IMG/VR virus record: IMGVR_UViG_3300048591_000730
Span: 1 to 36,391 of that record
Source: a virus
Strand: one strand, 5' to 3'
DNA length: 36,391 bases
The notes below the pieces were generated by a model. The model was not told the origin of the DNA and did no database searches. It saw nothing but the letters and a program-made list of their open reading frames with translations. A program made the translations under genes and the position numbers. The number at the start of each line of letters is the position of its first letter. Within the stretch, counting starts at the first letter, position 1. This document shows positions 3,273 through 30,262 of this stretch, one piece after another.

Positions 3273-4838
3273 TCAACGGTTGATCAAGTCCTTGCTTACC
3301 CTTTGCTGCCGGGCAAGCAGCGCGTTGATCCGCTCTATGTGAGACTGTACGTTCTCCAGTGCTTGAATCGTTTTTTCCCGTTCACTGTTCGCCTCCACGA
3401 TACTCTGGTGCACTTGCTGCCTAGCCTGCTTCTCCATGGCCACACCTTGATTGGCCGCAGATACAAGCCTCTCCATGCTCCCCAATTCCGCCACACCACG
3501 ACGGGCCCGCCCTTCCGCGCCCCACACCGCCTCCTGCGTCGGCAGCCCGCGCCTGATGCCTTCCGCCCGCTCAATCGCCCCCTTTTGCGCCCCCTCGAAC
3601 TGGCTCACATCCCCCTGCGCCGCGCGGATCGCCGCTATCTGACCTGGTGCCTGTGCTTCCAACGCGCTCACTCGTGCCCGCTGCCGGTCGCGCATCAAGG
3701 CTAGTGAATCCGTCATCCCATACAGCCCAGATAGCTCCCTGTTCTGCGGCGTCGTCAGCAGAAACTTCCCGCGCAGCTCATCTATCCGCGCCGTCTTCGC
3801 CTCCAATTCCTGCTCCGTCGCGGCCAACCGGCTGCGCTCAATGCGAATCTTCTCCGTGATCTGCGCCTCGCTCCCTAGTGCCGCCGCGCGCTCCTTGGCC
3901 TTCTCCAGATTTGCGCCCGCCACCTGCGCGGAGATCTCCTCATTTGCCAACTTGCGGTACGTCTCATTCCGTTCATACCTCGATGTCTGCTCCTCCCGTT
4001 GCAGCTTGCGCGCCGCGTATTTCTCCTCGATTTGCAAGACCCTTTCAGCCCGCTTGGCAGGGTCTTTCTCGCCCCCTGCTTGCGCCAATTCCACCCGTTT
4101 CCGCGCCTCGTCCAGCCGCTCCTCCGCCGACATCTGCGCCTTCTGCGCCGTCATCAAGCGGTCCGCCGCCTGGCTCGCCGTATCCTGCGCCGTGGCCAGC
4201 CTCTCGATGTCATTCGCGTACTTCGCCGTCGCGATCTGCGCCGCTTCCGTCGCCTTTTTACCCTCCTCCGTCACCCGCGCATAGCTCTCCCAATCACTCG
4301 TCGTCAGGGAGGCATTCAGCGCCGCCAAATCATTGCGCAGCTTGCCAAACGCAAACGCCGCGGCCGTCGCCACGCCCACGATCGGGTTCATCACCATCCG
4401 CGCCGCCGCGCCCAGGATCGGAACCTCGCGAGCGAGCTGCTGCAGCACCCCGAACAAGCTCTTCTTAGCTCCCGTCGCCTTAACTGTCGTCTCGATCCCC
4501 CTGACATCCTCAGCCGTCAGCCGCTTCACTGAGTTGGCCAGCTCCTCATCCGCGCCGGCCGCGTAGCCTGCGGCCTCCGCCCGGTCCATCTCCGCATCCG
4601 CCGCCGCTCCCGCTTGTCTCGACACCAGGCTGGCTCGGCGCTCTGCCGATTTCGCCAGCATATCCGCTTCCATCGCGGCATCGCTCTGCGCCTCCGACAT
4701 CTGCCGCAGCGCCTTCTGGTACCGCTCGCTCTCGTCGACCAGCTTCTCCGTCGCGGCCGTCACCTTGTCCAGCGACGCCGCCGTCGCCTGCGCCCCCTGC
4801 GTATCCGCCGTGACCCTTAGATCAATATTTGCGCTCAC
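3273..4838 (-). CDS. Tape measure protein (short)
   Basis: The 521-residue protein is mostly alpha-helical and Ala/Glu/Arg-rich, with long coiled coil at about residues 15-90 and 175-515. A central hydrophobic stretch (about residues 140-170, with PILGAAARMVMNPIVGVATAAAFAFG) is typical of tape measure proteins. It lies directly upstream of the tail hub gene. Start ATG 4838 overlaps the preceding stop as ATGA. At about 1.5 angstroms per residue it would specify a tail of roughly 80 nm. No lytic transglycosylase or peptidase domain is visible. The usual tail-chaperone frameshift pair is not seen upstream, because fibre genes lie between tail tube and tape measure. Confidence 0.7.
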   Translation of the reverse strand: MSANIDLRVTADTQGAQATAASLDKVTAATEKLVDESERYQKALRQMSEAQSDAAMEADMLAKSAERRASLVSRQAGAAADAEMDRAEAAGYAAGADEELANSVKRLTAEDVRGIETTVKATGAKKSLFGVLQQLAREVPILGAAARMVMNPIVGVATAAAFAFGKLRNDLAALNASLTTSDWESYARVTEEGKKATEAAQIATAKYANDIERLATAQDTASQAADRLMTAQKAQMSAEERLDEARKRVELAQAGGEKDPAKRAERVLQIEEKYAARKLQREEQTSRYERNETYRKLANEEISAQVAGANLEKAKERAAALGSEAQITEKIRIERSRLAATEQELEAKTARIDELRGKFLLTTPQNRELSGLYGMTDSLALMRDRQRARVSALEAQAPGQIAAIRAAQGDVSQFEGAQKGAIERAEGIRRGLPTQEAVWGAEGRARRGVAELGSMERLVSAANQGVAMEKQARQQVHQSIVEANSEREKTIQALENVQSHIERINALLARQQRVSKDLINR

Positions 4839-7441
4839 CAGATCCTCCCATTGCCCGTGATAGTTCCCTCACCGCTCACTGCCGATGGTATGGCATCACC
4901 CGGCAAATCTAGCACCGTCAGCGTCACCGTGTCCGACCACACAAAGCCACCCACATTCGACACCCGCACCTGGTAATCCCCGGCGTCCGACAACTGCGCA
5001 TTATTGATCGTCAGCGTCGTGCCCTGAATCCCAACCGGCTCAGCGCCCGCATACCAGTCGTAAGTCAAATCCTGCCCTGTCGCCGCCACCGTGAACGTCG
5101 CCGTTTGCCCCGCGTAAACCGTCTGACTCACTGGCTGCGCGGTGATCACCGGCGGAGAGTTCGTCGGCTCAGGATCACCTATTGGCGGAGGCACACTGGC
5201 TACCGTCGCGCCACCCGACCCGGCATACAGCGCGGACACCTCATCCGCGCTCAGCACCCGCTCATAAATCCGCACGTCATCGAGGAGCCCGTTGTGATAA
5301 GCGTCATTCGGGAAACCGTCGCCATCGGCGTCACCGGTCGTTTCCCAAGTGTATGTTCCCTCCTCGTTGTATTTGTGCGCGCCGATGCTGATCCAATCCG
5401 TGGGTGCGCCAGGCCCGACGTCCAGCGTCGGGAAAACGATCGTCGTCGCATTGGTGTAGGTTGGCCTGCCGTTCAGGTAAGCGACCGCTCGGTCGTTCTG
5501 CAGGTCCACCGTGACCACGTAATGCTCCAGCCCGTTGGTGCTTCGCCCGATGCTCGTGGCGTTGTTCGGCCACCGGGCCACCACATCCCCGTCCGTGCTC
5601 GTCGTCGTCGCCTTGTAGACCCGCAGCTGCATCTGCGCGATGTCCGCAATGTTCACACGTCCGATGCGCCAGGTGTTGGTATATTGGCTCACGGGAGTCC
5701 CCCGCGTCGCCGCATCGATCAGGTAGGTAGTCGGCTGCTGGCTCTTGCCCCAGCTCTCCGACCAAAAGCTCACCGTCATATTCGTCAGGCTGGCCAGCCT
5801 CGTGCCGGGAATGTTAGTGATGGCGAGATACTGCGAGCCCTCGTAGCGGTTCACACCGTTAGTGCTCCAGAAGTTCGTCTCAAACCGCGCTGCCATGCTT
5901 CCGAATGCACCGTTTGTTGGCACGATCCAATTCGTGTTGAACCGCATCCCGTTGTAGCCGTTCCCTGTCACGTCCAGGACATACCCCGCATTCGTGAAGC
6001 CTCGGTCAAAGTCCAGGTGCACCAGCAGTGCCGGGTCCCGCTCGAATGCCCCAATGTCATACGCCCCCCCCAACGGCCGCGCGTTGCCCTCGTAATCATT
6101 CGGCACGCCGGCGAGAGTCACACCCCGATCAATCAGCACCGACCCGGCCGCCAGCTTGAACAGGCCGGTGTCAGGGTGAGCAAACTTAGGGTCACCGCCG
6201 TTCACACTGTTGGCGTTCTGCGTGGTGAACGTGCTGCTCTTGGCCGCGAATGGGTTGCTGCCCACGCCGCTGGCGAAGTTATTGGACCTGACCAAATTCA
6301 GCGCTGGAATCCCCCCGTTCGTGCTCCAGCTCGTCGAGGCCGCCTGCACACCCCAGCCCGCACCGCTAACCCCACCGCAGTCGTAGAAAATATTATTCGC
6401 GCAGAGGCCATCCACCGCGCTGGCCCTGTCCGCGCCATCCGTCGGCCCGTAGTAGCTCCAGGTCAGCACCGACGTGTTATTGTTCGTCGTGCAGCTCACG
6501 AAGGTGTTATTGAGCGCGTAGAATCGCGGGATGCCAATGCTCGCCATCTGGGCCGACCGGATGATCAGGTTGTTCCGAAAATAAATGCTGTGGATGTTCG
6601 TCACTTGCTCGTGGTTCAGCCCCGAGTTCGACTGGTGCAGCGCTGCCAGGTTATTGATGAACAGGTTCCCTTCGATCACGTTATACATGCTCGCCCGCAC
6701 CGGCTGGCTGCTGCCCACCACCATGATCTGGAAGCAGTCCGGGTGGTCGCCAGTCACCAACCCGTCGGCACTCGGCTCGTAGTTGCAGTTGGTGAACGTA
6801 TTCCCTCGCCACGTGTTCCAGGCTCCCATCGGGTGGAAGAAGTCGCGCGCGTTCGAGTCGTCGAAGTAGTTGTTGATCGCCAGATTATTCGTCCCAAACA
6901 TCTCCATGAACGCGTGCCCGCCATTCCGAAAGACGTTATTGCTCACCACCACGTGGCAAGCCGCCTCCGTGTCCTGGTGAATGCCCTGCCCGTCCGCGCT
7001 CCAGAACAGCCCGTAGTCGCCGCTCGGCCAGTCGTAAATATAGCAATTCTGCACCCGCGCGTAGCTCGCCAGCTTGCCAATATTGATCAGCACAATCGCC
7101 GTCCGGCCGGTGCTGCTGATGGAGTCCAGCGTGATATATGGGTGCCCGATTCCAAAGCTGCTCACCTGCGCCCATTGCCCGCCAGTCCTCAGCCCTCGAA
7201 TCGTGATCCGGTTCGTGTCGCTCGTGCCACCCCGCACAGTGTCCGGGTCTTCCTGGTAGTAGCCTGGCTGGATGAGCACCGTGTCGCCGGCCTGCGCCAC
7301 GTCGACGCCATGCTGCACCGTCAGCCACGGGCTCAACTCCGTGCCTGGATTCGTGTCGTTGCCCGTGGTCGAGACGTAATAGGTGGCACTGAAGCCGGAC
7401 CAGGCCAGCAAGGCCGAGATTAGAAGTGCGCGGAAAATCAT
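4835..7441 (-). CDS. Secreted right-handed beta-helix / LamG / Ig-like protein
   Basis: The 868-residue protein starts with a clear Sec signal peptide (MIFRALLISALLAWSGFSA). Next comes a parallel beta-helix domain (about 20-460) opening with the YYVSTTGNDTNPGT signature of the DUF1565/pectate-lyase-like superfamily. A LamG/concanavalin-like domain spans about 470-740 and an Ig-like domain about 765-845. ATG 7441 was chosen because a GGAGGA ribosome site lies four bases upstream; it overlaps the stop of the M14 gene. Such proteins bind or cleave polysaccharide, so tailspike or exopolysaccharide depolymerase is plausible. A Sec signal on a virion protein is odd. The catalytic residues of a lyase cannot be identified. 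Confidence 0.8.
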   Translation of the reverse strand: MIFRALLISALLAWSGFSATYYVSTTGNDTNPGTELSPWLTVQHGVDVAQAGDTVLIQPGYYQEDPDTVRGGTSDTNRITIRGLRTGGQWAQVSSFGIGHPYITLDSISSTGRTAIVLINIGKLASYARVQNCYIYDWPSGDYGLFWSADGQGIHQDTEAACHVVVSNNVFRNGGHAFMEMFGTNNLAINNYFDDSNARDFFHPMGAWNTWRGNTFTNCNYEPSADGLVTGDHPDCFQIMVVGSSQPVRASMYNVIEGNLFINNLAALHQSNSGLNHEQVTNIHSIYFRNNLIIRSAQMASIGIPRFYALNNTFVSCTTNNNTSVLTWSYYGPTDGADRASAVDGLCANNIFYDCGGVSGAGWGVQAASTSWSTNGGIPALNLVRSNNFASGVGSNPFAAKSSTFTTQNANSVNGGDPKFAHPDTGLFKLAAGSVLIDRGVTLAGVPNDYEGNARPLGGAYDIGAFERDPALLVHLDFDRGFTNAGYVLDVTGNGYNGMRFNTNWIVPTNGAFGSMAARFETNFWSTNGVNRYEGSQYLAITNIPGTRLASLTNMTVSFWSESWGKSQQPTTYLIDAATRGTPVSQYTNTWRIGRVNIADIAQMQLRVYKATTTSTDGDVVARWPNNATSIGRSTNGLEHYVVTVDLQNDRAVAYLNGRPTYTNATTIVFPTLDVGPGAPTDWISIGAHKYNEEGTYTWETTGDADGDGFPNDAYHNGLLDDVRIYERVLSADEVSALYAGSGGATVASVPPPIGDPEPTNSPPVITAQPVSQTVYAGQTATFTVAATGQDLTYDWYAGAEPVGIQGTTLTINNAQLSDAGDYQVRVSNVGGFVWSDTVTLTVLDLPGDAIPSAVSGEGTITGNGRIW

Positions 7442-8853
7442 CGAGTCCTCCAAGCTGCAGAGTTGCCCCGGATCGCCGCCGCGTTCCCTCGCAGCACCGC
7501 GACACTGGTCACTGGCGGATCGCCGTCGATCGTGAATACTGCGGCGCTCGTGATGCCATAGGTGGTCGGGTCGCTGGTATCGGTGGCATCCGCATAGACC
7601 ACGTAATCGCCGCCAGGCAGCGCGGACACGTCAACGGTGCCCGTGAAAGTGGCGTTGCCCGTGGTCGTCTTGGTGTAGCTCAAGCTGCCTGGTGTCGCAC
7701 CGGAGTGCCAGGTTGGCAGGCCGATCGAATACCGAATGCCAGCGATGTCGTGGTCAGTGGCCGCGTCGTTGTTGCTGTCGGTTGCGGCTCCGCTGATTGT
7801 CAGCGTGGTCCCGTCCAGGCTGGCCACGATGTTCGTAATCTCAGGGAATTTCGGCTCATTGAACGGCTGACGCCCGGCCCGCAGCATATAATCAATTGCT
7901 ATCTCGTTCGCCGGCCTGGTCGTGTTGGTATAGTTGGCGCAGCTCCACCCGTTGATTGGTCCGAACTCCCAGGTGAGCGTTGGCACTCCCCAGATTCCGA
8001 ACCCTGTATTTTTCATCGTCCCCGTGGTGTAAGACAGGGAATTGATAGCGTAGCCGGTATAATGACGACCCTTGCGCGCGAGGCTCAGGAACTGCGCATC
8101 ATTGGGCGTCGTGCCAGTCTCCGGGTAGTAATAGAGAATGGTGTTGGCCTGGGTGTGCAGGTCGATAATCAGGCCGCTGACCGTGTTGCTCACGCTGTCA
8201 CCCAGGGCGGGCCCGCGCACGTCGGCAAACAGGGCATGGCAGTAGTTGGTCACGGCTTGAGTCTCAGGCTCGGAAGCCGCGCTCGGCCCGCTGTAAGATG
8301 AATTGCAAGGATCACTCAGCGCAAAGTCATAAGGAAAGTTCCGGTTGATATTCACGCCGTTCGTCTCGCCAACCGAACACCCAACGTCCCGCTGGTTGTT
8401 GCGAAAGACCAGGGAAAGCGGGGTAGATGAGGCGTCCGCTTTGACTTTGGAATCGATGTTGACCACCGGAATGATGTGCACCTCCGAATAGTCCAGCACG
8501 TAGCGGTAGTTGCCGTTCGTCGCGTAGCCGGCGCAGAGCCGCTCGGCGAGATTCACGAGGAACTCTGGCGGGGACAATTCAGCGGCATGGATGGTTCCGG
8601 TGAAAAGCACCGGATATTTAGGACCTGGAGCAGTCTGCTTGCTGACCACCACTCCGAGGATTTGCCGATTCTCCACCGTCACGCCGACATTCGTCCAGCG
8701 CACCAGGTCAGGGTAAGTGGAAACGAGGTTAGTCAGGCTATCCAGCAGTTCCGGCATCGTCCGGTAGCATGGGTATCCTATCATTCCCGCTCCGCGTGCT
8801 GGCATTACCAGCAGCGCCAGGAACCCGACGAGCGCGAGAAGCTTAGGGCTCAT
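7438..8853 (-). CDS. Secreted M14-family zinc carboxypeptidase
   Basis: This 471-residue protein begins with a signal peptide (MSPKLLALVGFLALLVMPARGA). The M14 zinc-peptidase core follows with all key residues present: zinc ligands H89 and E92 in the HAAE motif, substrate-binding R171 in NINRNFP, third zinc ligand H233 in LIIDLHTQ, and catalytic E296 in LTWEFG. A C-terminal beta-sandwich of about 110 residues follows. M14 enzymes cleave C-terminal residues from peptides, and some cut peptidoglycan stem peptides. No other endolysin is visible, so a wall-degrading role is possible but unproven. It overlaps its neighbours on both sides, so it belongs to the late operon. GTG 8859 is an alternative start. 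Confidence 0.85.
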   Translation of the reverse strand: MSPKLLALVGFLALLVMPARGAGMIGYPCYRTMPELLDSLTNLVSTYPDLVRWTNVGVTVENRQILGVVVSKQTAPGPKYPVLFTGTIHAAELSPPEFLVNLAERLCAGYATNGNYRYVLDYSEVHIIPVVNIDSKVKADASSTPLSLVFRNNQRDVGCSVGETNGVNINRNFPYDFALSDPCNSSYSGPSAASEPETQAVTNYCHALFADVRGPALGDSVSNTVSGLIIDLHTQANTILYYYPETGTTPNDAQFLSLARKGRHYTGYAINSLSYTTGTMKNTGFGIWGVPTLTWEFGPINGWSCANYTNTTRPANEIAIDYMLRAGRQPFNEPKFPEITNIVASLDGTTLTISGAATDSNNDAATDHDIAGIRYSIGLPTWHSGATPGSLSYTKTTTGNATFTGTVDVSALPGGDYVVYADATDTSDPTTYGITSAAVFTIDGDPPVTSVAVLRGNAAAIRGNSAAWRTR

Positions 8854-11167
8854 TAACACGCTTCCCTTCCAGGGCCTTGCTCCACACGTTGGTCACATCC
8901 GCGCCACTCAGCGACCGGCGCCAGATGCCCGCCTCATCAAGCTTACCGTTCAGGTATGTTGACCATGCGCCGAGCCGGATCGGCACGCTGGCGGCATCCT
9001 TAATCCAGGGATCGAAGACTTGCTCCTTCTCCAGGACGAGAGAGTTCGCGTTCGTGGTGCCGACATACAAGGACACGGTTTTGTTGGTCGGGTTGAACGT
9101 GCCGGCCACAAAATACGGTTGCGCCGTGGCGTGATTATTTGTGGTCCCCGTGACATAGGTGATCGTCGCGCCGGTCAGGTTTGTGCAGATCGCGATCCTG
9201 AAGTTTTGCCCAGCACTTGAGTAGTAGGACGCAAACACGCGGTTCCCGTCCGATACCGAGTCCTTGACCACAAGTGGACCGTTGATATTCGTCGCATTGA
9301 GGTAAACCCAGATGGCAAACGAGAATCCATTAGTTACCATGAAGTCCGCAGTGGCAGCAGCAGTGAGCGCATCCGGCGATGCATCAAAACCGGACGCCAA
9401 TCCAACCAGGCCGGAAGGGAATGTGACCGTGCCTGCCTCGGTCAGGTTGTTAGTCCCAATCGAGTCGACCCACGGTTCGCCCTCGAATGACCAGAGCGCC
9501 ACCATGTCGTTGGTGAGCGTGTTGTCACCACCGCCGCCACCTCCGCCAACCGCCACCGGGTAGCCATTCGTCAGTGACTCAGTGAATGCCTTGATACTCC
9601 AGTTCACGCCCTCGTTCGCCGCCCCCTGTAAGGCGAAGACCAGTTGCCCGCTCACGTTTGTCGTCACGAACGCGCCCAGCCCGCCAGAGGCCGCGAAAAC
9701 ATTCGAGGAGTAAGTGAACAGCGGCGCATCACCACGGAAATAGAGCCAGTCCAATCGCCCAAAATACACATTCGTCGCGCCCGCTCCGCGCACCCATGCC
9801 GTGCCAGCGTGCGTATGGTTCGCCGCCACCATGTTCGTCAGCACTGGTTCAAACGTGTTATTAGTCGCCGTTCCTGACCATTGGACCTCGAACACATTCG
9901 TCGCGCTACCGCCGCCCCCGCCACCAGCCTCCAGAGCATCCAGCCGCCCATCCTGCTCGCTATCCTTTGCGACCTGCCCAACCACACCAGCCCGAGGCAG
10001 GTTCGTTGCCAGCCCAAGGTTCGCGAACGTCACGTCATTGGACGTCACGCCCATGACCGCCACCTGCGTGTTCGTATTCACCACCTCGAACCAGTGGCCG
10101 CTCGGAGACTGCTGGAACGTCGTGCCGCCATTCGTGCCCGGCGGCAAGGTTGCAATGGCGTTGCTCAGGTAGTTCAGCCATGAGGGCAACTGTGGCGTGC
10201 CGGCCAGCGTGAGACCAAAACCCTTTGCCAGGTTCACTCCTGTGCTGAAATCCACAATATGATCCAGCCCGATCCACATATCCGCCGGGCCGTTCGTCGG
10301 TCCCAGGCTCAGGATGTTAGTGCCGTTTGGCACCGGGACCAGTTGCTGCGCCGTCACCGCATTCGTCGCCGTTGCGGCCGTCGACGCTGTGTCCGCCGCG
10401 CTGGCACTCGCCACCTTCCCGCTGATATTCGTAGCCGGGACGATGTTCGTCTGCGCCACTTGCTGCGCGATCGAATACACCGCGTTCGTGTCCACGCCCG
10501 CACCTGGTGGGACAAAACTCAGCGGGTTCAGCAGTGCCCACTCATCCAGCGTCCCGCGCCCGGTCACGCTCGCCAGGGGCACACTCGTGGCCGTGTCTGC
10601 CGTCGCTGCCGCGCTTACCTTGCCGGACACGTTCGTCGCCGGGATCGGGTTTGTGCTCACCACGGTCCGCGCCGCCTGCAGCGCCAGCACGTTGACCGTG
10701 TTCGTATCCACCCCAGTAGTGCCCCCCGTTGTCGGTAGATTCTCCAGGAGTGCGTCCACCTGTGCTGATGTGTAGAAGCTCGGGGTTCCGTTCGTGTTGT
10801 TGATCAGGTCGGCCACGTTAAGCAGTGCGTTAGTGTCCGGCACTGTAAGCGGGAATGACCGTGACGGGCTCCCAGCGATGTCCAACCGGTAGGCCCCCGC
10901 GAGCACGTTGCTAAACACTGTCACGCCCGTCGTGTCGGTGTATTGAGCCACGGCATCACCAGGGATCAGCCATGGCCCTGCGACCACAGGCCCCGGCTCC
11001 AGCAACGTCATCGTAACTCTGCGCCCCTGCACCTGGGTGCTATTGAACTTGTACACTCGCACCTCCAAGTCCGCCCCCTGCACGCACCGCGCGCCGAGCG
11101 CGATCAGGAAGATGGTGACCCCGAGGGCCAGCCAAAACCGCACGCTGCAATCTGATGGTTGTCTCAT
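8843..11167 (-). CDS. Secreted fibre-like protein with C-terminal LamG domain
   Basis: The 774-residue protein has an N-terminal signal peptide (RFWLALGVTIFLIALGARCVQGA, cleaved about residue 32). A small beta domain (about 33-110) follows, then a fibre-like region with an internal duplication: IPATNVSGKV at 175-184 and VPATNISGKV at 243-252, each followed by an Ala/Thr-rich ADTA segment. Two poly-glycine linkers at about 415-420 and 541-547 flank a beta-rich block. A LamG domain (about 555-770) ends the protein. Start ATG 11167 overlaps the preceding stop. The fibre repeats suggest a tail fibre or adhesin. The signal peptide is unexpected for a protein assembled in the cytoplasm. Confidence 0.75.
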   Translation of the reverse strand: MRQPSDCSVRFWLALGVTIFLIALGARCVQGADLEVRVYKFNSTQVQGRRVTMTLLEPGPVVAGPWLIPGDAVAQYTDTTGVTVFSNVLAGAYRLDIAGSPSRSFPLTVPDTNALLNVADLINNTNGTPSFYTSAQVDALLENLPTTGGTTGVDTNTVNVLALQAARTVVSTNPIPATNVSGKVSAAATADTATSVPLASVTGRGTLDEWALLNPLSFVPPGAGVDTNAVYSIAQQVAQTNIVPATNISGKVASASAADTASTAATATNAVTAQQLVPVPNGTNILSLGPTNGPADMWIGLDHIVDFSTGVNLAKGFGLTLAGTPQLPSWLNYLSNAIATLPPGTNGGTTFQQSPSGHWFEVVNTNTQVAVMGVTSNDVTFANLGLATNLPRAGVVGQVAKDSEQDGRLDALEAGGGGGGSATNVFEVQWSGTATNNTFEPVLTNMVAANHTHAGTAWVRGAGATNVYFGRLDWLYFRGDAPLFTYSSNVFAASGGLGAFVTTNVSGQLVFALQGAANEGVNWSIKAFTESLTNGYPVAVGGGGGGGDNTLTNDMVALWSFEGEPWVDSIGTNNLTEAGTVTFPSGLVGLASGFDASPDALTAAATADFMVTNGFSFAIWVYLNATNINGPLVVKDSVSDGNRVFASYYSSAGQNFRIAICTNLTGATITYVTGTTNNHATAQPYFVAGTFNPTNKTVSLYVGTTNANSLVLEKEQVFDPWIKDAASVPIRLGAWSTYLNGKLDEAGIWRRSLSGADVTNVWSKALEGKRVNEP

Positions 11168-14801: not shown

Positions 14802-15383
14802 CTAATCGTATCTCGCGGTAACCGAGTCCAGGGAACACGCGCTGGTACCATCCAGCACTACCCTGATCGGCCTGCCCCGCGTGCCCGCATAGAGCGCCTC
14901 GCCCTGGTAGACGGCCGTGGCCGCACCTACCTTGATCGTGGTGGCCGCGCTCAGCTTGTAGATCTGGTCACCAGCCGCGACAGCCGATCCAAATCCGCCC
15001 GACGTGAGTGTGACCTTGTTGGTCACCACGGCGGAGACAATGCCCGAAGCGGCCGTGCCATCAGCGCGCTGGAGCATCAGCACGTCATTCGCGGCCAGGC
15101 CGTTTGTGAACGTGAGGAAGTGGTCCGTCGCGGTAGTGGTCGCGTTGTTGCTGATGATCACATACGAGCTGGTGCCCGCGCGAATCGACAGCACGCTGGC
15201 CGCCTTGTCGCTGGTCGCGATCGCGCCGACCAGGCGCACCTGCTTCAGCGGTTCCGCATTGAAATAAACGGTCGCGGACGTTGTGCCGCTCGCGTTCTTG
15301 GTGACGTAGTCCCCTGCCGCGTTCGCACTCAAGGCTACAACCAGGACCGCGCCGCACGCTAAAATCTGCCGGAAAGTATTCAT
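14802..15383 (-). CDS. Exported protein following the capsid gene (decoration position)
   Basis: The 193-residue protein has a clear Sec signal peptide (MNTFRQILACGAVLVVALSANAA). The mature part is Thr/Ala/Val-rich beta sequence with the ending SLDSVTARYD. Gene order places it where siphophages put head decoration proteins, and its composition fits such a role, but a signal peptide is unexpected for one. An AAAGGA ribosome site lies five bases before ATG 15383, so the start, and therefore the signal peptide, is well supported. An exported coat or surface protein is an alternative. Confidence 0.7.
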   Translation of the reverse strand: MNTFRQILACGAVLVVALSANAAGDYVTKNASGTTSATVYFNAEPLKQVRLVGAIATSDKAASVLSIRAGTSSYVIISNNATTTATDHFLTFTNGLAANDVLMLQRADGTAASGIVSAVVTNKVTLTSGGFGSAVAAGDQIYKLSAATTIKVGAATAVYQGEALYAGTRGRPIRVVLDGTSACSLDSVTARYD

Positions 15384-15454: not shown

Positions 15455-16858
15455 TTATGCCGCCGGCGTAGCCAGGGCGCAGGTCACATCCACCTGCTGG
15501 TAGTCGAAGTCGATCTCCTCGATGAACCGCGTGGCCAGTTCGTCCGTGGTGAAATACACGTCCGAGCTGAAGTCCATGCGCGGGGAGCCGTGCTCGCCGA
15601 ACCACCACCAATCGAGCGCGCCGAACACCGCGAGGTAACTGGAGACCGACGCGGCCTCGCCGTAAGGCGTCAGCACGTCCGTCCAGATCACCGGGTAACC
15701 GTCAATCTTCGCCGTGCCGTCGGGCATGACCACGAAGAAATACGGATCGGCTTCCGTGTTCATCTCGCGCAGGGCGACTTCCCACGTGCTGTCCAGGTAA
15801 TACGCGGAGCGTTGGGCGCTCAGCGCGGCCTTGTTCACCAGCGTCCGCATGTTGCGAAAGTCGGTCTTGGTGGCGTCGCTAGGCTTGGTCTTGCCGGCTG
15901 CCAGCGTCCGCACCTTGCCGGCGTCCGTGGCGATCTTGCAGACACCCTTCACGTTTTCATAGGTGGCCGTGCCATCCGCCAGGAAACCCCACGTGTCTTC
16001 CGCGCGGGCAAATTCCACGGCGCCGTAGCGAGCCAGGAACTGGCCCATCGGCACGATGCTCTGCTCGTCGATTTCGCGGGGCACGCGGACGATGCCGCCC
16101 AGCTTGTGCGATTCCAAGGAGGCGAAATCAATCTGCGGTGATTTCTCCGCGAAGGCAGCGGACATGGCGATCGAGCCGAAGCTCGGGCGCGTCTTGAACC
16201 GGGGCGGCTTCGCCGTGCCACGACCGATCGGGAACCGCATCATTTTGCGGCGCACCACGCCGAACTCGCTGATCAGCTCGCGCACTTCCGAGAAGTATTC
16301 GTCCGGCAGCGGAATGTCGGTGGTGGTGATGGCGGCCTTGGCCTCGATGCCGAGCACGCTGCGCATCTGGTCAAACAGCGAACTGCGCATCTGCGCGTCG
16401 AGCAAGTCCAGCCGGCCGCTCTTCGCGTTGCCCAGGATGAACATTGCTGCCAGGTGCCGGGCGCAGGCCGTGGTCACCAGGCCGGGCTGTCGCACCTCCA
16501 GTGTGTTGCGGCCGAGACCCAGCTTGCGCAGCTCGGTGATGTCGCCCGCGTTTTTATTGGCCGCCGTTTCCAGTGCGGTGATTTTACCTTCGAGCGCTTT
16601 CTGGCCGTCGGTCAATTTCTTCACACCGTCGAGAACCTTCGTCTCGAAAGTGGCGGCGCCGCCGCCTCCGCCGCCCGCGCCTTCACCGGCGCCGGGGTCG
16701 CGCAGCAGCATGCCGAACGGCAACGCTGCGGCCGAAAGCAGCACGCCTCCGAGCATGCCGGTTGCCATCAGTGAATAGACTGCCAGTCCTGCCACCAGGC
16801 AGAGCATCAGCGTTGCGAACATCCAAAGGGTGTCCTGTCGTTTCCGAAACTTTTTCAT
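15455..16858 (-). CDS. HK97-type major capsid protein with N-terminal membrane hairpin
   Basis: The 467-residue protein has four parts. Residues 11-50 form two adjacent hydrophobic segments with a short loop. A Gly-rich linker spans about 56-67, including six glycines. A coiled-coil delta-like scaffold region (FETKVLDGVKKLTDGQKALE and on) spans about 70-113. The HK97 capsid fold runs from about 125 to the end, containing PLPDEYFSEVRELISEFGVVRRKM and a C-terminal SSDVYFTTDELATRFIEEID. The protease gene upstream would remove the N-terminal part at maturation. An AGAAAGG site lies before ATG 16858, supporting this start. A later ATG at 16711 would omit the hairpin but has no visible ribosome site. 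A membrane hairpin on a capsid is very unusual. Confidence 0.85.
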   Translation of the reverse strand: MKKFRKRQDTLWMFATLMLCLVAGLAVYSLMATGMLGGVLLSAAALPFGMLLRDPGAGEGAGGGGGGAATFETKVLDGVKKLTDGQKALEGKITALETAANKNAGDITELRKLGLGRNTLEVRQPGLVTTACARHLAAMFILGNAKSGRLDLLDAQMRSSLFDQMRSVLGIEAKAAITTTDIPLPDEYFSEVRELISEFGVVRRKMMRFPIGRGTAKPPRFKTRPSFGSIAMSAAFAEKSPQIDFASLESHKLGGIVRVPREIDEQSIVPMGQFLARYGAVEFARAEDTWGFLADGTATYENVKGVCKIATDAGKVRTLAAGKTKPSDATKTDFRNMRTLVNKAALSAQRSAYYLDSTWEVALREMNTEADPYFFVVMPDGTAKIDGYPVIWTDVLTPYGEAASVSSYLAVFGALDWWWFGEHGSPRMDFSSDVYFTTDELATRFIEEIDFDYQQVDVTCALATPAA

Positions 16859-16899
16859 GAGAACCTTTCTGTTGGGACTATTGGTTATTGGTTAATTGG

Positions 16900-17586
16900 T
16901 CACAGCTTGGCGACCAGCTTCATTACTGCGTCCGCGAGTTGCTCCCTTGCCCGGACCCGAGCCAGTTCGGCGAGTCCGGGATCGATAGCCTCGCTGGCGG
17001 TTTCATGTTTGCGTTGCTCTGCGGAAATCATGTCGAGGTCGGCATCCGTGAGCAGCCCGGCTTTGTAGCTCTTGGCCAAGGCGTTCGGGTTCGCGCCAAT
17101 GATGCAGGCGCTTAGCTCGACCTGTTGTTGTTCGAGGTAGACGACGCGCGGGCCGGTCTGCGCATCCAGCTTCAGCTCCATCAACTGCTGCTGGTAGGCG
17201 GATGGATCAGTGTCCCATTTGCTCACCCACTTGGTCGGGAAGAATCCCACGGACACCGCCTTCAAATAGCCAGCTTCGGTCATCTTCCAGCCGAGCTGCG
17301 CGAGCGTGTTGGTTGCCACGTCGATCGCCCACTGGACTGTTTCAACAAGCTGCTTCCCTCGCACTTCAAACGAGGTCACCTTGCCCAGGAGCTTGTCCAC
17401 GCTGTGGTAATTGTGGCTGTCCACGAACGGCGCGTTTTTCTTGAACTGGTCGAAGCGCCAGCCGCTGGCGCGGATCACTTCGCGATAGCTGTCCAGCGTC
17501 TCGTCGCTCGCGACGTATTCGACCGTGCCGGTCTTCGCGTCCAGGACTCGGACTTCGGAGTGGATGGTGCGGCGGAAAATATTCAT
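16900..17586 (-). CDS. HK97-family prohead protease
   Basis: This 228-residue protein is a herpesvirus-type serine protease of the HK97 prohead protease family (peptidase family S78/U35). It has the catalytic His in FVDSHNYHS (H58) and the nucleophile Ser in LKAVSVGFFP (S112). The C-terminal QQQVELSACIIGANPNA segment is also typical. It removes the scaffold-like N-terminal part of the capsid protein during maturation. It lies directly upstream of the capsid gene. The last ~50 residues are charged and helical. Start is ATG 17586. Confidence 0.9.
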   Translation of the reverse strand: MNIFRRTIHSEVRVLDAKTGTVEYVASDETLDSYREVIRASGWRFDQFKKNAPFVDSHNYHSVDKLLGKVTSFEVRGKQLVETVQWAIDVATNTLAQLGWKMTEAGYLKAVSVGFFPTKWVSKWDTDPSAYQQQLMELKLDAQTGPRVVYLEQQQVELSACIIGANPNALAKSYKAGLLTDADLDMISAEQRKHETASEAIDPGLAELARVRAREQLADAVMKLVAKL

Positions 17587-17590
17587 AGGC

Positions 17591-17758
17591 TCAGTGTGAT
17601 CGGGTCAGATGAAAGTGTGAGCAGTGCGGGCAGCGATAGGCGCTGAGCGGCACGATGCGTTGCGACTTCTCCAAAATTTGTCCGGCGCGAATCAGCGCCC
17701 GCTCGTGTGTTTTGAACTTGCGCTTGCCCGAGATGCGACATGGTTTGCGCTTGGCCAT
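17591..17758 (-). CDS. Small zinc-ribbon protein
   Basis: The 55-residue protein starts at ATG 17758 (MAKRKPCRISGKRKF) and ends YRCPHCSHFHLTRSH. The CxxC followed by HFHLT near the C-terminus is a one-knuckle zinc motif typical of tiny phage proteins, and the basic N-terminus is nucleic-acid-binding in type. It lies between portal and protease. The upstream MTGKMPAPH extension comes from the palindrome at 17766-17782 and is rejected as start. Confidence 0.65.
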   Translation of the reverse strand: MAKRKPCRISGKRKFKTHERALIRAGQILEKSQRIVPLSAYRCPHCSHFHLTRSH

Positions 17759-17765
17759 ATGTGGG

Positions 17766-17782
17766 GCAGGCATCTTGCCTGT
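17766..17782. repeat. GCAGGCA palindrome at a gene junction
   Basis: This third copy, with GCAGGCA and TGCCTGT arms, lies between the portal stop at 17782 and the zinc-ribbon gene start at 17758. One arm base has diverged, so the outer pair is a G-T wobble. Confidence 0.75.
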
Positions 17783-19989
17783 CATTCAGGTGCCTCCTCC
17801 ACCTGGCCGATCGCCACGCAGTGACAGTTGATGACGTTCCACGGCGCGCCCTCGGGATCGCCGGGGTGCGACACCTGGTCGACTTGCCCGGTCTTCGGAT
17901 CGATGACGGTGAACTTCTCGCCGATGGGCACCGTGGCGCCGTTGGCCATGCGATGCGCCGCGCGCACGTTCGCGTTGCCGCTCGTGAGCCAGCGCTTGAA
18001 CTTCAGCCCGGCGCTCTGCATCGCTTCCTGCCGCGCGACGCCGTAAGCCGCGCTGGTCTCGGTCATCGCGATGCGCGTGGCCCGCGTCTTGTTCATGTTG
18101 TTGAACTCGGAGCGCACGCGGTCCGCCAGTTCCTTCGTGGTGTCGCCCTGGTCAAGCCCTTCCTGCAGGGACTCCATCACGTTGTCGAAAACTTCCTTGC
18201 TCGCGCCCGCGATGCGGTTGTCGCGCTCTTTCAGGAACTGCTGCGCTTTCGCGGGAGGCATGCTCCACGGATCGTCTTTCGCGATCTCGGCATAGAGCTG
18301 CTCGCCGGCCGTCTGCAGGGCGTCCATCGCCACGCTGCGCAACGCGGTCTGCAAACCCTTCGTGAAATCCGCGAGCGAGAACATCAGGTCCGCCGCCGCC
18401 GCGCGCTGGCCGATCGCCCGCAACATCGCCATGCGTCCATCGCTCTCCGCGCCGATCTTGCGCAACACTTCCGCGCGGGCTTTTGTGAGCTCACGCGTCA
18501 CGCGGGTTTCGTAAGCGCGAATTGTCTTGCGCCGCTTGGCCATGTGCTCGCGCCATTGGGCGACTTCCTTCGGGTCGCGGTCCTTGGCGCGCGTGACCAG
18601 GTCGTAGCCGCCATCCCGTCCGCAACCGCACCCGCACAAGCCGCGCTCTTCCTCGTCGACTGGTGGAGTCGGCTCTTCGTCTTCGCCAAGCGTCGGGTCT
18701 TTGTCCGGCAGCCCGGCCGCGTCCGCGGGCACCACCGAGAATGGCAGATAGCCCGTGTCCCAGCCGTCGAACTCCGGCAGCCCGAGGTCGAGATACTCGG
18801 AGATCTCCGAGAGCGGCATGCCCTTGGTCCAGAGCACATCGATGGAAGCCAGGCGTTCGCGCCGGACTTCCTGCATCGTGTGGTTCTCGTCCCAGTTCAG
18901 GTAGACTTCGAGATCCCGCTTGAACGCCAGCACGGCCAGCCGTTGCAGCATGTCGCAGAACCGATCCCCGGCGGGCAAACACGTGTGCGAGACGAGCTGG
19001 AACAAATCGGACGCGCTGCCGATCGAGTATGCCGCTTTGACGTCGGCCAGCGAGGGAGGCACGCCAAACGCGATGTAAATTTCGTGCCGGTCTTCGGTCC
19101 GGCCTAATATGTATGAGGCATCGACCGTCTGGATCTTCGGGTCTTCCACCGCAATGTCGCCGCTCAAAAAGATGCCGGTGAACTCGCCGCGTTGCTGGGC
19201 CCGGCGCTTGGCGCGGAGCTGCTCCATGATTTGCGCCTGCTGTTCCGGCGTCGGGATGCCGCCCTTGGCGACGAGGATCGGGCCGGTGTCCCCGTTGTTC
19301 GCCATCAAATTCTTTTTGAACTTCGCCGAGAGGAAGTCCGCGTCGCTGGCCAGCTTCGCCGCTTCGTATTCGCCGAGCCCGCGGAAATCGTCGTAAGGAT
19401 TCCAGAGCTTCTCGTGGATCACCTGCTCGGGCAGGAGCGCGTGCGGATGCCCGAACGCATCGGTGAATCGCCAGCCCACCAGCTTGCCGCCCTCGACCAC
19501 GTGCTGCATCCGGTCCGGCCGCGCGACTATGACCTGGAGTGGTAGCGATGCGTCCCGGAACGGCAACAGCGTTTCGTCCGGCAGAATCCAGAACGCTTCC
19601 CCTCGCAGCTTCAGCCAGCCGATCGTTGATTCGACAAGCGACGCGTAGCCGTAGCCTGCCATCGGGCGACGCAGGAACTCGCGCAGCTCGGGCACCTCGA
19701 TCATCTGCTCGTCATCCATCCGCCGGATCCCGCGACCCGTGATGCGCCGCCGCTTCCCCGGAGTGCGGCCGTCCCCGGCCGCAGCAACCGGTTGGTAGAA
19801 CTCCACGCCCACACTGGCGATCGGTCCCGCGACTTTCTTGATCGCACTCTGCACCCAGGCGCTCTGCCGATACGGCTCCGCCATACCGTTCATCGCGCCG
19901 ACCATGTCGTCGCCGCGCAGGAATTGTTGCGGGCTGATGCCGCGCACCAGGACACTCGCCGCCGCTTTGAGTCGGGAGACCAGGTTCAT
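17782..19989 (-). CDS. Portal protein fused to SPP1 gp7 / Mu F-like head morphogenesis domain
   Basis: The 735-residue protein has two regions. Residues about 35-420 match the HK97-type portal fold, with markers PLQVIVARPDRM, HEKLWNPYDDFRGLGEYE and AFGVPPSLADVKAAYSIGSAS. Residues about 645-730 match the gp7/Mu-F minor head protein, with RIAMTETSAAYGVARQEAM and the WNVINCHCVAIG end. Separate genes in Mu and SPP1 are joined here. A short cysteine-rich linker (GLCGCGCGR) lies between them. A palindrome insertion at 19760-19788 encodes part of the N-terminal domain. Start is ATG 19989. Confidence 0.85.
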   Translation of the reverse strand: MNLVSRLKAAASVLVRGISPQQFLRGDDMVGAMNGMAEPYRQSAWVQSAIKKVAGPIASVGVEFYQPVAAAGDGRTPGKRRRITGRGIRRMDDEQMIEVPELREFLRRPMAGYGYASLVESTIGWLKLRGEAFWILPDETLLPFRDASLPLQVIVARPDRMQHVVEGGKLVGWRFTDAFGHPHALLPEQVIHEKLWNPYDDFRGLGEYEAAKLASDADFLSAKFKKNLMANNGDTGPILVAKGGIPTPEQQAQIMEQLRAKRRAQQRGEFTGIFLSGDIAVEDPKIQTVDASYILGRTEDRHEIYIAFGVPPSLADVKAAYSIGSASDLFQLVSHTCLPAGDRFCDMLQRLAVLAFKRDLEVYLNWDENHTMQEVRRERLASIDVLWTKGMPLSEISEYLDLGLPEFDGWDTGYLPFSVVPADAAGLPDKDPTLGEDEEPTPPVDEEERGLCGCGCGRDGGYDLVTRAKDRDPKEVAQWREHMAKRRKTIRAYETRVTRELTKARAEVLRKIGAESDGRMAMLRAIGQRAAAADLMFSLADFTKGLQTALRSVAMDALQTAGEQLYAEIAKDDPWSMPPAKAQQFLKERDNRIAGASKEVFDNVMESLQEGLDQGDTTKELADRVRSEFNNMNKTRATRIAMTETSAAYGVARQEAMQSAGLKFKRWLTSGNANVRAAHRMANGATVPIGEKFTVIDPKTGQVDQVSHPGDPEGAPWNVINCHCVAIGQVEEAPE
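19760..19788. repeat. GCGGCCG palindrome inside the portal gene
   Basis: The 29-base element GGAGTGCGGCCGTCCC..GCAGCAAC has 7-bp arms GCGGCCG/CGGCCGC and a TCCC loop. Here it is read in frame on the minus strand as VAAAGDGRTP within the portal N-terminus. A second copy at 31546-31574 differs by compensatory arm changes. Confidence 0.85.
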
Positions 19990-20320: not shown

Positions 20321-21760
20321 TCAAATCAGTGTTGCTCCGTAGCCGCCGCCTTTGATGTTCCCGGCGTGGACGGCGAGGGCCTTGGCCCAAAATCGGTCGC
20401 AGTGTGAATCTTCGGAGTCGCCGACAAACCGGATGTTGCCGGCCGCCGTGGTCTCCTTCTTGATGCCGCGCAGATCGCTGCGCAGTTTCTCGTCCCGCGT
20501 GTAGCGGATGCGCCGGTCCTCGTGCACGGCCCGGAGCGGAAAGGCGAGGTCCTGCTTCACCTGGTTCGTGAAGTTCACCATCTCCACGCGATAACCCCAG
20601 CGCTCCTTGGCTTCCTCCGCGAGTTGGTTGCCGAGCCCGGTCGAGTCGATGCACGCGCGGCGCACGGACGGCAGCGCCATCAGGCGGTCCAGCTCGGCGC
20701 GTTGCTGACCGTAGGGCGTCTTGCGCAGCTCGATGCGGAGCCGCTCCCAATACACATCCCCGACCCGCTCCTCGACATCGATGACGCTCAAGTCCTGCTT
20801 GCGCGCCACGTCGAACCCGATGAACAGCGGATTCTTGCACTGCGCCAGATACGCGAAATCTTTGCGGGCGCCTTCGTCCTCCGCCTGGGAGAGCATCTCG
20901 TAAGTGATGAACGCGGAGCTTTCGTCCGCCGGGATGCAGCAGTATTCCTGCAGCCACTGCTCCTCGTCGATGCACTCGGCGCGTTGCCGGGCCAGCCAGG
21001 CTTCGCGCGTCTCGGTGCGGCCGGTGACTTTGTTGATGCGCTCGACCAGCCCTTCCTCCACCGCCTTCTGCACGGGCACGGTGTGCAGGCTCCAGCCCAT
21101 CGTGTTGCCGCGCTCCAGGATGTCCGTGACGATCTGGTTAAACACGGTGGCCGCGCCTCGGTGTGTGCTAATTATGCTGAGGGTGCCGCCCCATTGCGTC
21201 ACCGGCTTGGCCACCGCGTAAAGCGTGCGCTGATCCTTGTGAATCGCGAACTCGTCCAGCTTCACATGGCCGGTCTTGCCGACGATCGCGTCCGGGTTCG
21301 AGCTTAGCGCGTAGATGCTCGCGCCGCTGGCGAACGTGATCACCTGGACCTTGAAGCTGTTGCCTCTGTCATCCAGGAAGAGCTGCTCGCCCACGTCCTG
21401 GAAGGCGTGATTCAAGACCTTTGCCCACTTCTTGCAATACAGGATGTATTGCTTCGCCTGGGTCTCGTCGCGCGACATCACCCACACGTCCAGCCCGCCG
21501 CGCAGCGAGGCTTTCTTCACCGAATCGTAGGAGTCGCAATAACTGAACCCGAGCTGCCGCCCCTTCTGCACGATGCGCAAGCGCGACTGGTCATTGATCC
21601 ATCGTGCCTGATACGGCAGGAAGTAAGCCTCCTGCCGGGAAAGTTTGCTGGGTTCTGGAGCGCTACTCCCAGATTTAACAGCATCCACGGACTGCGCAGC
21701 CCGCTTCGCTGCACCGCCCCCCAGCCGGGCGGTTCGTTCTCGTTTTAGTGTTAGAGTCAT
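20321..21760 (-). CDS. Terminase large subunit
   Basis: This 479-residue protein packages phage DNA into procapsids with an ATPase and a nuclease domain. The ATPase Walker A-like segment is VQKGRQLGFS (65-74) and the Walker B is VKLDEF (D169, E170), with STHRG coupling motif at 198-202. The RNase H-like nuclease carries D317 in IGFDVARKQD, D372 in CIDSTGLGN and D455 in HCDRFWAKAL. It fits the Mu gp28-like group. The start was set at ATG 21760, 13 bases after the previous stop; a longer frame to 21814 would overlap the preceding gene. Confidence 0.9.
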   Translation of the reverse strand: MTLTLKRERTARLGGGAAKRAAQSVDAVKSGSSAPEPSKLSRQEAYFLPYQARWINDQSRLRIVQKGRQLGFSYCDSYDSVKKASLRGGLDVWVMSRDETQAKQYILYCKKWAKVLNHAFQDVGEQLFLDDRGNSFKVQVITFASGASIYALSSNPDAIVGKTGHVKLDEFAIHKDQRTLYAVAKPVTQWGGTLSIISTHRGAATVFNQIVTDILERGNTMGWSLHTVPVQKAVEEGLVERINKVTGRTETREAWLARQRAECIDEEQWLQEYCCIPADESSAFITYEMLSQAEDEGARKDFAYLAQCKNPLFIGFDVARKQDLSVIDVEERVGDVYWERLRIELRKTPYGQQRAELDRLMALPSVRRACIDSTGLGNQLAEEAKERWGYRVEMVNFTNQVKQDLAFPLRAVHEDRRIRYTRDEKLRSDLRGIKKETTAAGNIRFVGDSEDSHCDRFWAKALAVHAGNIKGGGYGATLI

Positions 21761-21773
21761 TGCAGCGCTGTGC

Positions 21774-22133
21774 CTAAAAATTCGGGAGCGGAACGGTTTG
21801 GCCTCGCAACTCATGCGTGCAATCAGACAGGAACTGAATCATGCCATCTCGAACAAATGAGTGGCAGACTGTCTCAACCTTCGTTTGTGGCCACGGTTGT
21901 TTCTGCCACTCAGGCAAGTTCTCCGCTGTTACTGGCGGCGCCCAAATGTGCGACCTGATCAGGATGGATGGTTCGAAGGTCGGCTTATCGGCGTTGCCGT
22001 TAAATGACCATGTTGCGCCTAAAATGTTATGCTGCGACGTCCAAACTCCGTGACCGCATTTGCACCCAGGGCAAAAGAACATGTAGTCAGGGTGCCCATC
22101 GCCTTGGGGGTGGTTGAGTGTTCGGAGAATCAT
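21774..22133 (-). CDS. DUF6527-like protein
   Basis: The 119-residue protein has the layout I associate with the phage family DUF6527: a cysteine pair FFCPGCKCGH near residue 20, the WSFNGNADKPTFEPSI motif, and near the C-terminus CHSFVRDGMIQFLSDCTH. It may bind a metal through the conserved Cys and His. Function is unknown. Start ATG 22133 overlaps the preceding stop as ATGA. Base composition (about 50% GC in a sampled 60 bases) is well below its terminase neighbours, suggesting a recently gained accessory gene. Confidence 0.75.
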   Translation of the reverse strand: MILRTLNHPQGDGHPDYMFFCPGCKCGHGVWTSQHNILGATWSFNGNADKPTFEPSILIRSHIWAPPVTAENLPEWQKQPWPQTKVETVCHSFVRDGMIQFLSDCTHELRGQTVPLPNF

Positions 22134-28153: not shown

Positions 28154-30262
28154 ATGATCTCCGATCTGACACCATACCAGCCGCAACCCGTCCCGGCCCC
28201 TGCGAAGGCGCGCCCCACGCTCAGCTTCGCCATCCCGCCCGACCAGGCCGCCGCGCTCTCCGCGTTCATCCCGCACGACGAGATGCAGCGCGTCCGTGTC
28301 CTGCTGGCTGCGTTGTCAGACATCCATCGCGCCCCCAAGATTCTGCCCGCCTGCAATCGCCTTGCAGCCGGCATGCACCGACGCGGCACGAGTGCCCAAC
28401 GGCTCCGGGCGCTCTACTACGCCTACACGCGCGGCACCGACACCTACCCGGCCGGCGACTGGCGGATTCTCCTTGACGGCAACAAGGCCCGCATCGACCG
28501 CCCCACCGACGAGCAGAGCATCAAGCATCGCCCGGCGTTCATCGAGTTCTGGCGCAAGCTCGGCGAAGATTTTCACCAGGATTGGGCCGCCGCCCACGGC
28601 GAACTGCTCCGCATCTGGACCAACGGCTACGACCAACTCGGGCGCAAATACACCGCGATCCCCGGTTACGACTCCTGGCCCGTGGCTGACGCCTGGCTCG
28701 GGCACCCGTCCGGCTGGAGCTACGCGAACCTGATGCGTTACCAGTCCGACCTCTACGACCAGGTCGCCGCCCGCATCGGTCACGCCAAGGCCAGCGCCCA
28801 CCGGCTGCCGGTCCTCACCACTCGCGTCGGGTTGGAGTTCGGCCAGTTCATCGAGCTGGACGATCATGAGTTCAACCAACGCACCCTCTTCCAACGCCGA
28901 CCCATGCGCCCGCTCGGGTTCGGTGCGGTGGAAATCCTCAGCGATTGTCCGGTGCACATGGGTTTCAAACCTACGCTCTGGGACTACGAAGCCGAAGTGA
29001 AGCGCAAGCTCACGGAGCGCGAGTTCATGTGGTTCGTCGTGTCGCTCCTGACGACGTTCGGTTATCGCGCCGACATCGGCACCACCTTGATCGTCGAGCG
29101 CGGCACGGCGGCCATCCGCAAAGAGTTCGAAGCCCGCCTGCTCGCCGTCAGCAACGACAAGATTGTTTCCTACGTCGGCGGTCGCTTCGGCAAGCCCTCG
29201 CACGCGGGCCAGTTCGAAGGGCGGTCAAAGGGTAACTATCGCACGAAGAAACTCGTTGAAGGTTTCTGGGCCATGGTTGACAACCAGACCGCCATGCTCC
29301 CGGCCCAGACCGGCCGCGGTCGCGACGACGCCCCCGAAGGTTTCACCCCGTCCGCCGGTGCGGAGCAATACACCGCCCGCGTGTTCCGCGCCGCCGACCA
29401 GGCCGGGCTCAGCGCCGAGCAGATCGCGCAGTTGCAATTCCCTTACCCGACCTACCAGCAGTGGCGCGAGTGGGCGATGGACGCCGTCAACCGCATCGCG
29501 CGCACGCGTGAGCACCAGCTCGAAGGCTGGGATAAACTCGGCTTCGTGCAGCCCGTGTGGCGCTTGCCCGCCATCGCCGGACAGGATTCGCCCTGGCTCC
29601 CCTGGCAGAACTTCCTCGCGCTGCCGGACACGCAGCAGGCTGTCGTCAAGTCGATGCTCGATGCCGACCGCTCGCTCATCAAGACCATGCGGCTCAGCCG
29701 GCACGAAGTGAAGTGCGCAAACCTGCACCTCATGACGAAGCTGCCGCTGGAGCTGATGTCCGAACTGGTCGGACCCGAGAACGCGCTCTCCGATCCTTTG
29801 GAAGTCAAGAGCGGTCTGTTCCGTTTCGAGTGCGCCGAGATCGACTCCGACCCGCTGGAGTTTTACGCCCGCGACTTCCGCAGCCAGGCGTTTCTCGCGA
29901 ACGGAACCAAGTGCACCGCGTATGTCAATCCCTACGCCCCGACGCACCTGGTGGCTTACGACGCGTCCGGCAAATTCGTTGCGGCCTGCCCGCGTTACGT
30001 GCGTGCGGTCCGCACGGACGAGCACGCGATCGAGAAGCTCATGGGTGCGCAGCAACAATTCGAAGCCGCCGCGCGCGTCCGCCTGAACCTCCGCCACTCC
30101 GACCAGGCCGCCGCCAAGCAGCAGATGCTCGCGAACAATACCCGCGTGCTAGCAGAGGTAGGGCGCGGTGTCCCTACCGCGCCGCCCGCCGCCCTCGACG
30201 ACGACACCGCTGATTTACTCGCCCGCTCGGGCGAGGTGAACCCCGAAGAAGACACCTGGTAA
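28154..30262 (+). CDS. MuA-type DDE transposase
   Basis: The 702-residue protein drives replicative transposition. The RNase H-type catalytic core lies at about 228-375. The first catalytic Asp is D236 in FIELDDHEF. The second position is occupied by E315 in LIVERGTAA, where Asp is usual. The third is E369 in KKLVEGFW. The 79- and 54-residue spacings resemble those in MuA (67 and 56). Residues 420-650 form the Mu-type C-terminal region. A palindrome at 30157-30186 adds VGRGVPTAPP near the end. It precedes the MuB-type ATPase gene. Start ATG 28154. Confidence 0.9.
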   Translation: MISDLTPYQPQPVPAPAKARPTLSFAIPPDQAAALSAFIPHDEMQRVRVLLAALSDIHRAPKILPACNRLAAGMHRRGTSAQRLRALYYAYTRGTDTYPAGDWRILLDGNKARIDRPTDEQSIKHRPAFIEFWRKLGEDFHQDWAAAHGELLRIWTNGYDQLGRKYTAIPGYDSWPVADAWLGHPSGWSYANLMRYQSDLYDQVAARIGHAKASAHRLPVLTTRVGLEFGQFIELDDHEFNQRTLFQRRPMRPLGFGAVEILSDCPVHMGFKPTLWDYEAEVKRKLTEREFMWFVVSLLTTFGYRADIGTTLIVERGTAAIRKEFEARLLAVSNDKIVSYVGGRFGKPSHAGQFEGRSKGNYRTKKLVEGFWAMVDNQTAMLPAQTGRGRDDAPEGFTPSAGAEQYTARVFRAADQAGLSAEQIAQLQFPYPTYQQWREWAMDAVNRIARTREHQLEGWDKLGFVQPVWRLPAIAGQDSPWLPWQNFLALPDTQQAVVKSMLDADRSLIKTMRLSRHEVKCANLHLMTKLPLELMSELVGPENALSDPLEVKSGLFRFECAEIDSDPLEFYARDFRSQAFLANGTKCTAYVNPYAPTHLVAYDASGKFVAACPRYVRAVRTDEHAIEKLMGAQQQFEAAARVRLNLRHSDQAAAKQQMLANNTRVLAEVGRGVPTAPPAALDDDTADLLARSGEVNPEEDTW
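30157..30186. repeat. GTAGGGC palindrome inside the transposase gene
   Basis: Identical over 30 bases to the copy at 28087-28116 and read in the same frame, giving VGRGVPTAPP about 25 residues before the transposase C-terminus. Confidence 0.9.

Follow-up and report, generated by a model that had tools for sequence, protein, structure and literature searches.

Capsid precursors of tailed phages from Verrucomicrobiota often begin with a hydrophobic hairpin, suggesting head assembly at a membrane

The window, by which we mean the whole 36,391-nt stretch of an IMG/VR virus record analysed here, carries a head-gene block in the order terminase, portal, small zinc-finger-like ORF, protease-type protein, capsid, signal-peptide protein and head-tail connector genes; all evidence reported below is derived from sequence. 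The genes around the capsid gene are located as follows.

20321..21814, minus strand: terminase large subunit (PF17289, E 3.9e-12), the query that led to 35 related loci
17782..19989, minus strand: portal protein with a Mu F-like C-terminal part (PF04860, E 1.9e-24; PF04233, E 3.1e-13)
17591-17785: small zinc-finger-like ORF between the portal and protease genes
16900..17586, minus strand: putative prohead (head maturation) protease (phrog_80, E 5.4e-9; phrog_4523, E 5e-8; phrog_617, E 1.2e-13)
15455..16858, minus strand: major capsid protein precursor, 467 aa (PF05065, phrog_10, AlphaFold2, Foldseek)
14802..15383, minus strand: 193-aa all-beta protein that begins with a signal peptide; its gene follows the capsid gene directly

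The putative protease gene, which had no Pfam match, adjoins the capsid gene on its upstream side. The capsid product itself was readily classified: residues 184-453 matched PF05065 (E 4.5e-19; 69.4 bits against a curated cut-off of 24.2), phrog_10 matched with an E-value of 1.6e-19, and an AlphaFold2 model (pLDDT 86) had a confident HK97 body. Foldseek ranked this model with the GTA capsid (E 5.3e-14), HK97 Head II (E 1.6e-10), D3 prohead 1 (E 1.4e-9) and T5-like capsids, placing the protein among HK97-fold capsids. From its start codon, the precursor is laid out as follows.

16864..16870, minus strand: AGAAAGG, a ribosome-binding-like site 5 nt before the ATG (from sequence)
16829..16858, minus strand: K/R-rich start, residues 1-10 (MKKFRKRQDT), five K/R in ten, expected on the cytoplasmic side
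16766..16828, minus strand: hydrophobic segment 1, residues 11-31 (19-residue hydropathy mean, KD19, 2.14; AlphaFold2 helix 2-32; homologues)
16703..16759, minus strand: hydrophobic segment 2, residues 34-52 (15-residue Kyte-Doolittle mean 2.0; counterpart in loci L171 and L045)
16652..16696, minus strand: Gly-rich linker, residues 55-69 (sequence, AlphaFold2)
16514..16651, minus strand: coiled-coil part of the scaffold (delta) domain, residues 70-115 (AlphaFold2 helix, pLDDT 80-96 over most of it)
16310..16513, minus strand: remainder of the scaffold and presumed cleavage region, residues 116-183 (helices 130-169; exact site putative)
15500..16309, minus strand: HK97-fold capsid domain, residues 184-453 (PF05065, AlphaFold2, Foldseek)

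A first-pass annotation had described an HK97-type capsid with two N-terminal hydrophobic segments, a Gly linker and a coiled coil, preceded by AGAAAGG; PF05065, hydropathy and AlphaFold2 confirm this layout, and the motif is where that reading had it. The N-terminal coiled coil (helix 70-115, helices 130-169) precedes the body as in capsids with a fused scaffold, and probably has a scaffold role; model confidence was low at about residues 171-190, near the start of the PF05065 match at 184. The maximum 19-residue Kyte-Doolittle mean of segment 1 is the highest value among the head genes of the window. AlphaFold2, suggested earlier as a check, bore out half of the hairpin, with residues 2-32 forming a helix of fair confidence and residues 35-69 falling below pLDDT 50; the second predicted arm is thus supported by hydrophobicity and by homologues, not by the model. 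Hydrophobic segments were called throughout from Kyte-Doolittle hydropathy windows.

Neither the capsid nor the portal protein recovered any relatives in short-pattern searches; the terminase led to 35 related loci, in which homologous capsids were then located. These fell into two families, A1 (window-like) and A2, and profile searches extended them to 80 viral loci for A1, 49 viral loci for A2 and 30 loci in bacterial genomes. Because nearly all named bacterial genomes with such capsids are Verrucomicrobiota metagenome-assembled genomes (Limisphaerales, Opitutaceae, Verrucomicrobiales, Pedosphaera), the exceptions being one record labelled Patescibacteria and a few labelled just 'bacterium', we take the hosts to be Verrucomicrobiota.

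Removal of near-copies at 90% identity left 124 capsids across both families, in which we scored a hairpin where the KD19 after the start codon, picked by rule in the relatives, was at least 1.9. The threshold was passed by 56 of the 124, and 51 remained as clean hairpin starts once near-copies and wrong hits were dropped, 49 of them with two segments; the condition under which the first-pass annotation would have fallen, a hairpin missing from every homologue, does not hold. Examples are L131 MKSFLKKYKHTTALIAVVLLSVILLPGAAAFFVIGCWQLSQIAMSKRR, L161 MHKHKYLKPFALPVLALVALPLLLCIALFAFVMLPAAAQAGVSCAIAPLVIPKGK and L041 MKKRMRVRNNRIMAAGLVLLVLVAVCLLPALLALITVHPEAGMLMAFPAALAVGKK. Hairpin homologues have on average 4.0 K/R and 0.2 D/E before segment 1, a loop of seven residues with 0.2 K/R and 0.3 D/E between the segments, and 1.8 K/R and 2.3 D/E just after segment 2, so that this last flank is not net positive overall; it is clearly positive in the SKR-type group. 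On hydropathy, two segments joined by a short uncharged loop make a hairpin, with a positive flank after the second segment clear in part of the set, and the charge pattern fits a predicted N-in/C-in hairpin with both ends cytoplasmic.

The same threshold scored no hairpin in an unrelated capsid family (0/74), in other PF05065 capsids of Verrucomicrobiota genomes (0/21, although L210 and L212 each show one weaker hydrophobic segment) or in distant named phages of Campylobacter, Streptococcus, Oceanotoga and the human gut (0/6). When the three forward frames of the same DNA were searched for ATG-started runs of at least 45 aa with a hydrophobic segment, such runs occurred in the capsid frame at 55 of 123 loci, against 0/246 in the other two frames. 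Hairpin dN/dS in the closest pairs was below 1, at about 0.2-0.4, rough figures with dS near saturation (L019/L167 0.23/1.32, L161/L172 0.35/1.03, L055/L117 0.38/1.51). In most of these pairs, hairpin dN was two- to threefold that of the body (L161/L172, 0.35 against 0.11), the excess being small in L019/L167 (0.23 against 0.19); faster drift with dN/dS below 1 would be expected if hydrophobicity, not sequence, is what is selected.

A start at the alternative ATG at 16711 (Met50), which sits within segment 2, was raised earlier as a reason to doubt the hairpin, and it fails on several counts, dN/dS among them. It lacks a preceding SD-like motif, the homologues closest at the N-terminus have a residue other than Met there (PFGCILRD in L171, TPFLILRD in L045), and codons 1-50 are coding-like, with a GC3 of 0.70 against a GC2 of 0.44. 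By these comparisons the hairpin is neither a product of chance nor of a wrongly called start, and every indirect test used indicates that it is translated.

We asked how the hairpin is distributed over the capsid phylogeny. A tree of 91 A1 capsid bodies forces at least 14 changes between hairpin and no hairpin, counting well-supported branches alone. The sisters of the window by body, L010 and L037 (about 67-74% identical), lack a hairpin; the best match of window residues 1-115 is not to these but to L171 and L178 of family A2 (E about 1e-9), whose bodies are just remotely similar to that of the window. The hairpin, Gly linker and first part of the scaffold therefore move as a module, and the hairpin is dispensable, optional and exchangeable between capsid families. 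At least 14 gains or losses fit a part that is missing from the mature shell.

The gene directly downstream of the capsid encodes a protein that AlphaFold2 models as all-beta (pLDDT 90), with no Pfam or phrog family match and no confident fold relative; its position suggests a candidate decoration protein. Its family, of about 190-227 aa, is present in 28 loci after duplicate removal (L006, L010, L037, L038, L041, L045, L046, L073, L131 and others), in 25 of which a Sec-type signal peptide was called; an alignment of 25 members has the signal peptide well aligned, with an AxA-like site. Such a conserved signal peptide is odd for a head gene, and the product looks exported. By raw count the gene was present in 18 of 34 genomes with a hairpin and in 7 of 34 without, with no association in phylogenetically independent pairs, and no other tested gene co-varies with the hairpin. 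Signal peptides also begin three tail-region proteins of the window, all on the minus strand: a LamG/Ig protein (4835-7441), an M14 zinc carboxypeptidase (7438-8853) and a LamG fibre-like protein (8843-11164). Sending late proteins to the envelope may be more general among these phages.

The comparisons show that the hairpin is encoded, that selection acts on its amino acids, that it recurs and is exchanged as a unit, and that it sits N-terminal to the scaffold. Tailed-phage capsid precursors are regarded as soluble, with any membrane contact made via the portal. With a protease-type gene just ahead of the capsid gene and the hairpin on the N-terminal side of the scaffold, a membrane tether cut by the head protease is the best reading of this arrangement, and we give about an even chance to a hairpin that would place the precursor in the cytoplasmic membrane as N-in/C-in and then be removed with the scaffold. 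Nascent or newly made precursors would insert into the cytoplasmic membrane with both hairpin ends and the capsid domain cytoplasmic; capsomers would be concentrated at a membrane patch, where portal and protease would join them; the shell would grow with its concave face towards the membrane, as the geometry of D3 and HK97 suggests; and the adjacent protease would remove the hairpin together with the scaffold, leaving a mature shell that should be the same as in hairpin-less relatives.

The geometry needs care. The coiled coils at the N-terminus of the HK97 and D3 scaffolds are directed inwards, at the middle of the prohead; those of D3 form towers of 5-6-stranded bundles aimed at the procapsid centre (PMC12749128). 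With the scaffold in the interior, a simple external tether is impossible; the tether would therefore be inside the shell, and the membrane would be enclosed, or the hairpins extracted or cut before closure. By analogy with these phages, an inside tether implies a shell around a membrane or an internal hydrophobic core. The first-pass proposal of a tether to the inner membrane until protease cleavage thus holds in that the hairpin is real and recurrent, and needs amending in its geometry, with the tether inside the shell (PMC12749128), and in its generality, the hairpin being optional and absent in L010 and L037. Weighing against insertion are the uncertainty of AlphaFold2 over the second arm, the lack of a co-varying gene and the assembly of close relatives without a hairpin. 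Membrane-associated prohead initiation has a precedent in T4, in which it takes place at the inner membrane through the portal with YidC (PMC9958956).

The hairpins might instead stay out of any membrane and pack against one another where the scaffold towers end inside the prohead, strengthening a scaffold core that would be digested as the head matures. The D3 towers do point inward and bundle (PMC12749128), which would put hairpins at the tower ends; the patchy occurrence of the hairpin among close relatives is in keeping with an optional extension of the scaffold, and a rough estimate gives room enough. Yet about four K/R and almost no acid in ten residues, followed by about 20 uncharged hydrophobic residues, a short uncharged loop and then another segment, is what a membrane hairpin looks like, and such a start would normally meet the insertion machinery during translation; we hold a purely internal core to be a serious but clearly less probable account, and favour membrane insertion over it.

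If insertion and an inward-facing scaffold are both granted, it follows that the shell could assemble around a real membrane vesicle in the manner of PRD1, which would make this a tailed phage that has, at least for a time, an internal membrane. Assuming shell thickness, helix area and an HK97-like size, we estimated that helices would occupy 43-51% of the surface of a sphere drawn through the tower tips, so that a vesicle of some 25-31 nm could fit geometrically; the PRD1 coat is probably scaffolded by a vesicle that has pinched off (PMC6356626). Such a vesicle would need clearing before DNA packaging, however, and hairpin-less close relatives need none, making this improbable. We know of no tailed phage with an internal membrane vesicle.

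We think it a little less probable still that one gene yields two products, a minor full-length one whose hairpin would anchor or nucleate proheads and a major one that is shorter and initiated internally. An in-frame ATG lies at residues 41-85 in 37 of the 51 hairpin proteins, and initiation at Met50 would yield MLLRDPGAG..., which resembles the way the hairpin-less L018 naturally begins; but just 6 of the 51 have an SD-like motif ahead of such an ATG, which is weak either way since such motifs are rare at called starts too (7/51), 14 of the 51 have no such ATG, and the Met50 of the window is inside segment 2 and unconserved. Export of the capsid protein by a Sec signal peptide is very unlikely: several late proteins of the window do have signal peptides and a few relatives look signal-peptide-like (for example, L012 with FFCGSAEAAG), but a second hydrophobic segment is present and is followed by positive charge, and the scaffold must meet cytoplasmic portal, protease and terminase. 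That the hydrophobic stretch is an untranslated upstream extension, with the real start at 16711 or later, recalls the hairpin-less relatives that start just before the scaffold domain, and can be dismissed almost outright given the SD-like site upstream, the GC3 pattern, dN/dS, the frame-specific recurrence and the unconserved Met50.

The capsids of HK97 (gp5) and D3 share with that of the window the body fold, the order of scaffold, linker and body, a coiled-coil scaffold and a protease gene just upstream (PMC12749128). Their scaffolds, of about 102-113 residues, are described as beginning with the coiled coil, whereas in the window about 52-69 extra residues with two hydrophobic segments come before it. 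T4 likewise starts head assembly at the cytoplasmic membrane (PMC9958956), but there the portal gp20, not the capsid protein, makes the membrane link, together with the chaperone gp40 and host YidC. PRD1-type phages assemble the shell on a membrane that ends up inside (PMC6356626), as may happen here; unlike the phage of the window, they have a double jelly-roll capsid, a soluble capsid protein, separate phage membrane proteins and no such tail. We found no capsid protein of this kind in the open-access literature, mostly judged by titles and the beginnings of abstracts. To our knowledge, no characterised head protein has a removable, membrane-seeking double hydrophobic start.

Our comparisons suggest that in tailed phages of Verrucomicrobiota the main head protein often opens with a pair of hydrophobic segments that is membrane-seeking and removable, and that the heads of these phages may form on or around a membrane. 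The bolder version, to which we give little credence, is that a lineage of these phages builds HK97-fold heads around a piece of host cytoplasmic membrane through hundreds of scaffold-fused hairpins and later removes both membrane and hairpins; if true, this would join the assembly of tailed phages with that of internal-membrane phages. A hairpin gained and lost many times, and swapped between families, is a natural experiment in whether head assembly can move to the membrane, and closely related capsid bodies with and without it make the question of membrane assembly directly testable.

Other N-termini were seen among the relatives. A second, weaker type with one hydrophobic stretch (QYLAAVTxxTAHNLL...VPLxFxVV; L137, L138, L044, L115, L181) is common to both families, for example in L137 of A1 and L181 of A2. 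In L044, L042 and L115, an ORF of 44-49 aa with a single hydrophobic helix (for example, MDIIITILITAVVVGPVCWFGGANNARKTL) lies just after capsids with a weak N-terminal segment only. Small hydrophobic ORFs near the capsid gene, considered as possible stand-ins for the hairpin, occurred in 10 of 71 hairpin-less and 0 of 53 hairpin genomes; they are of several unrelated kinds, and we claim no replacement. Elsewhere in the window, an AAA-domain protein (30279-31271, plus strand) lies beside a 702-aa protein without a Pfam match (28154-30262, plus strand), an arrangement that resembles Mu-like transposition genes.
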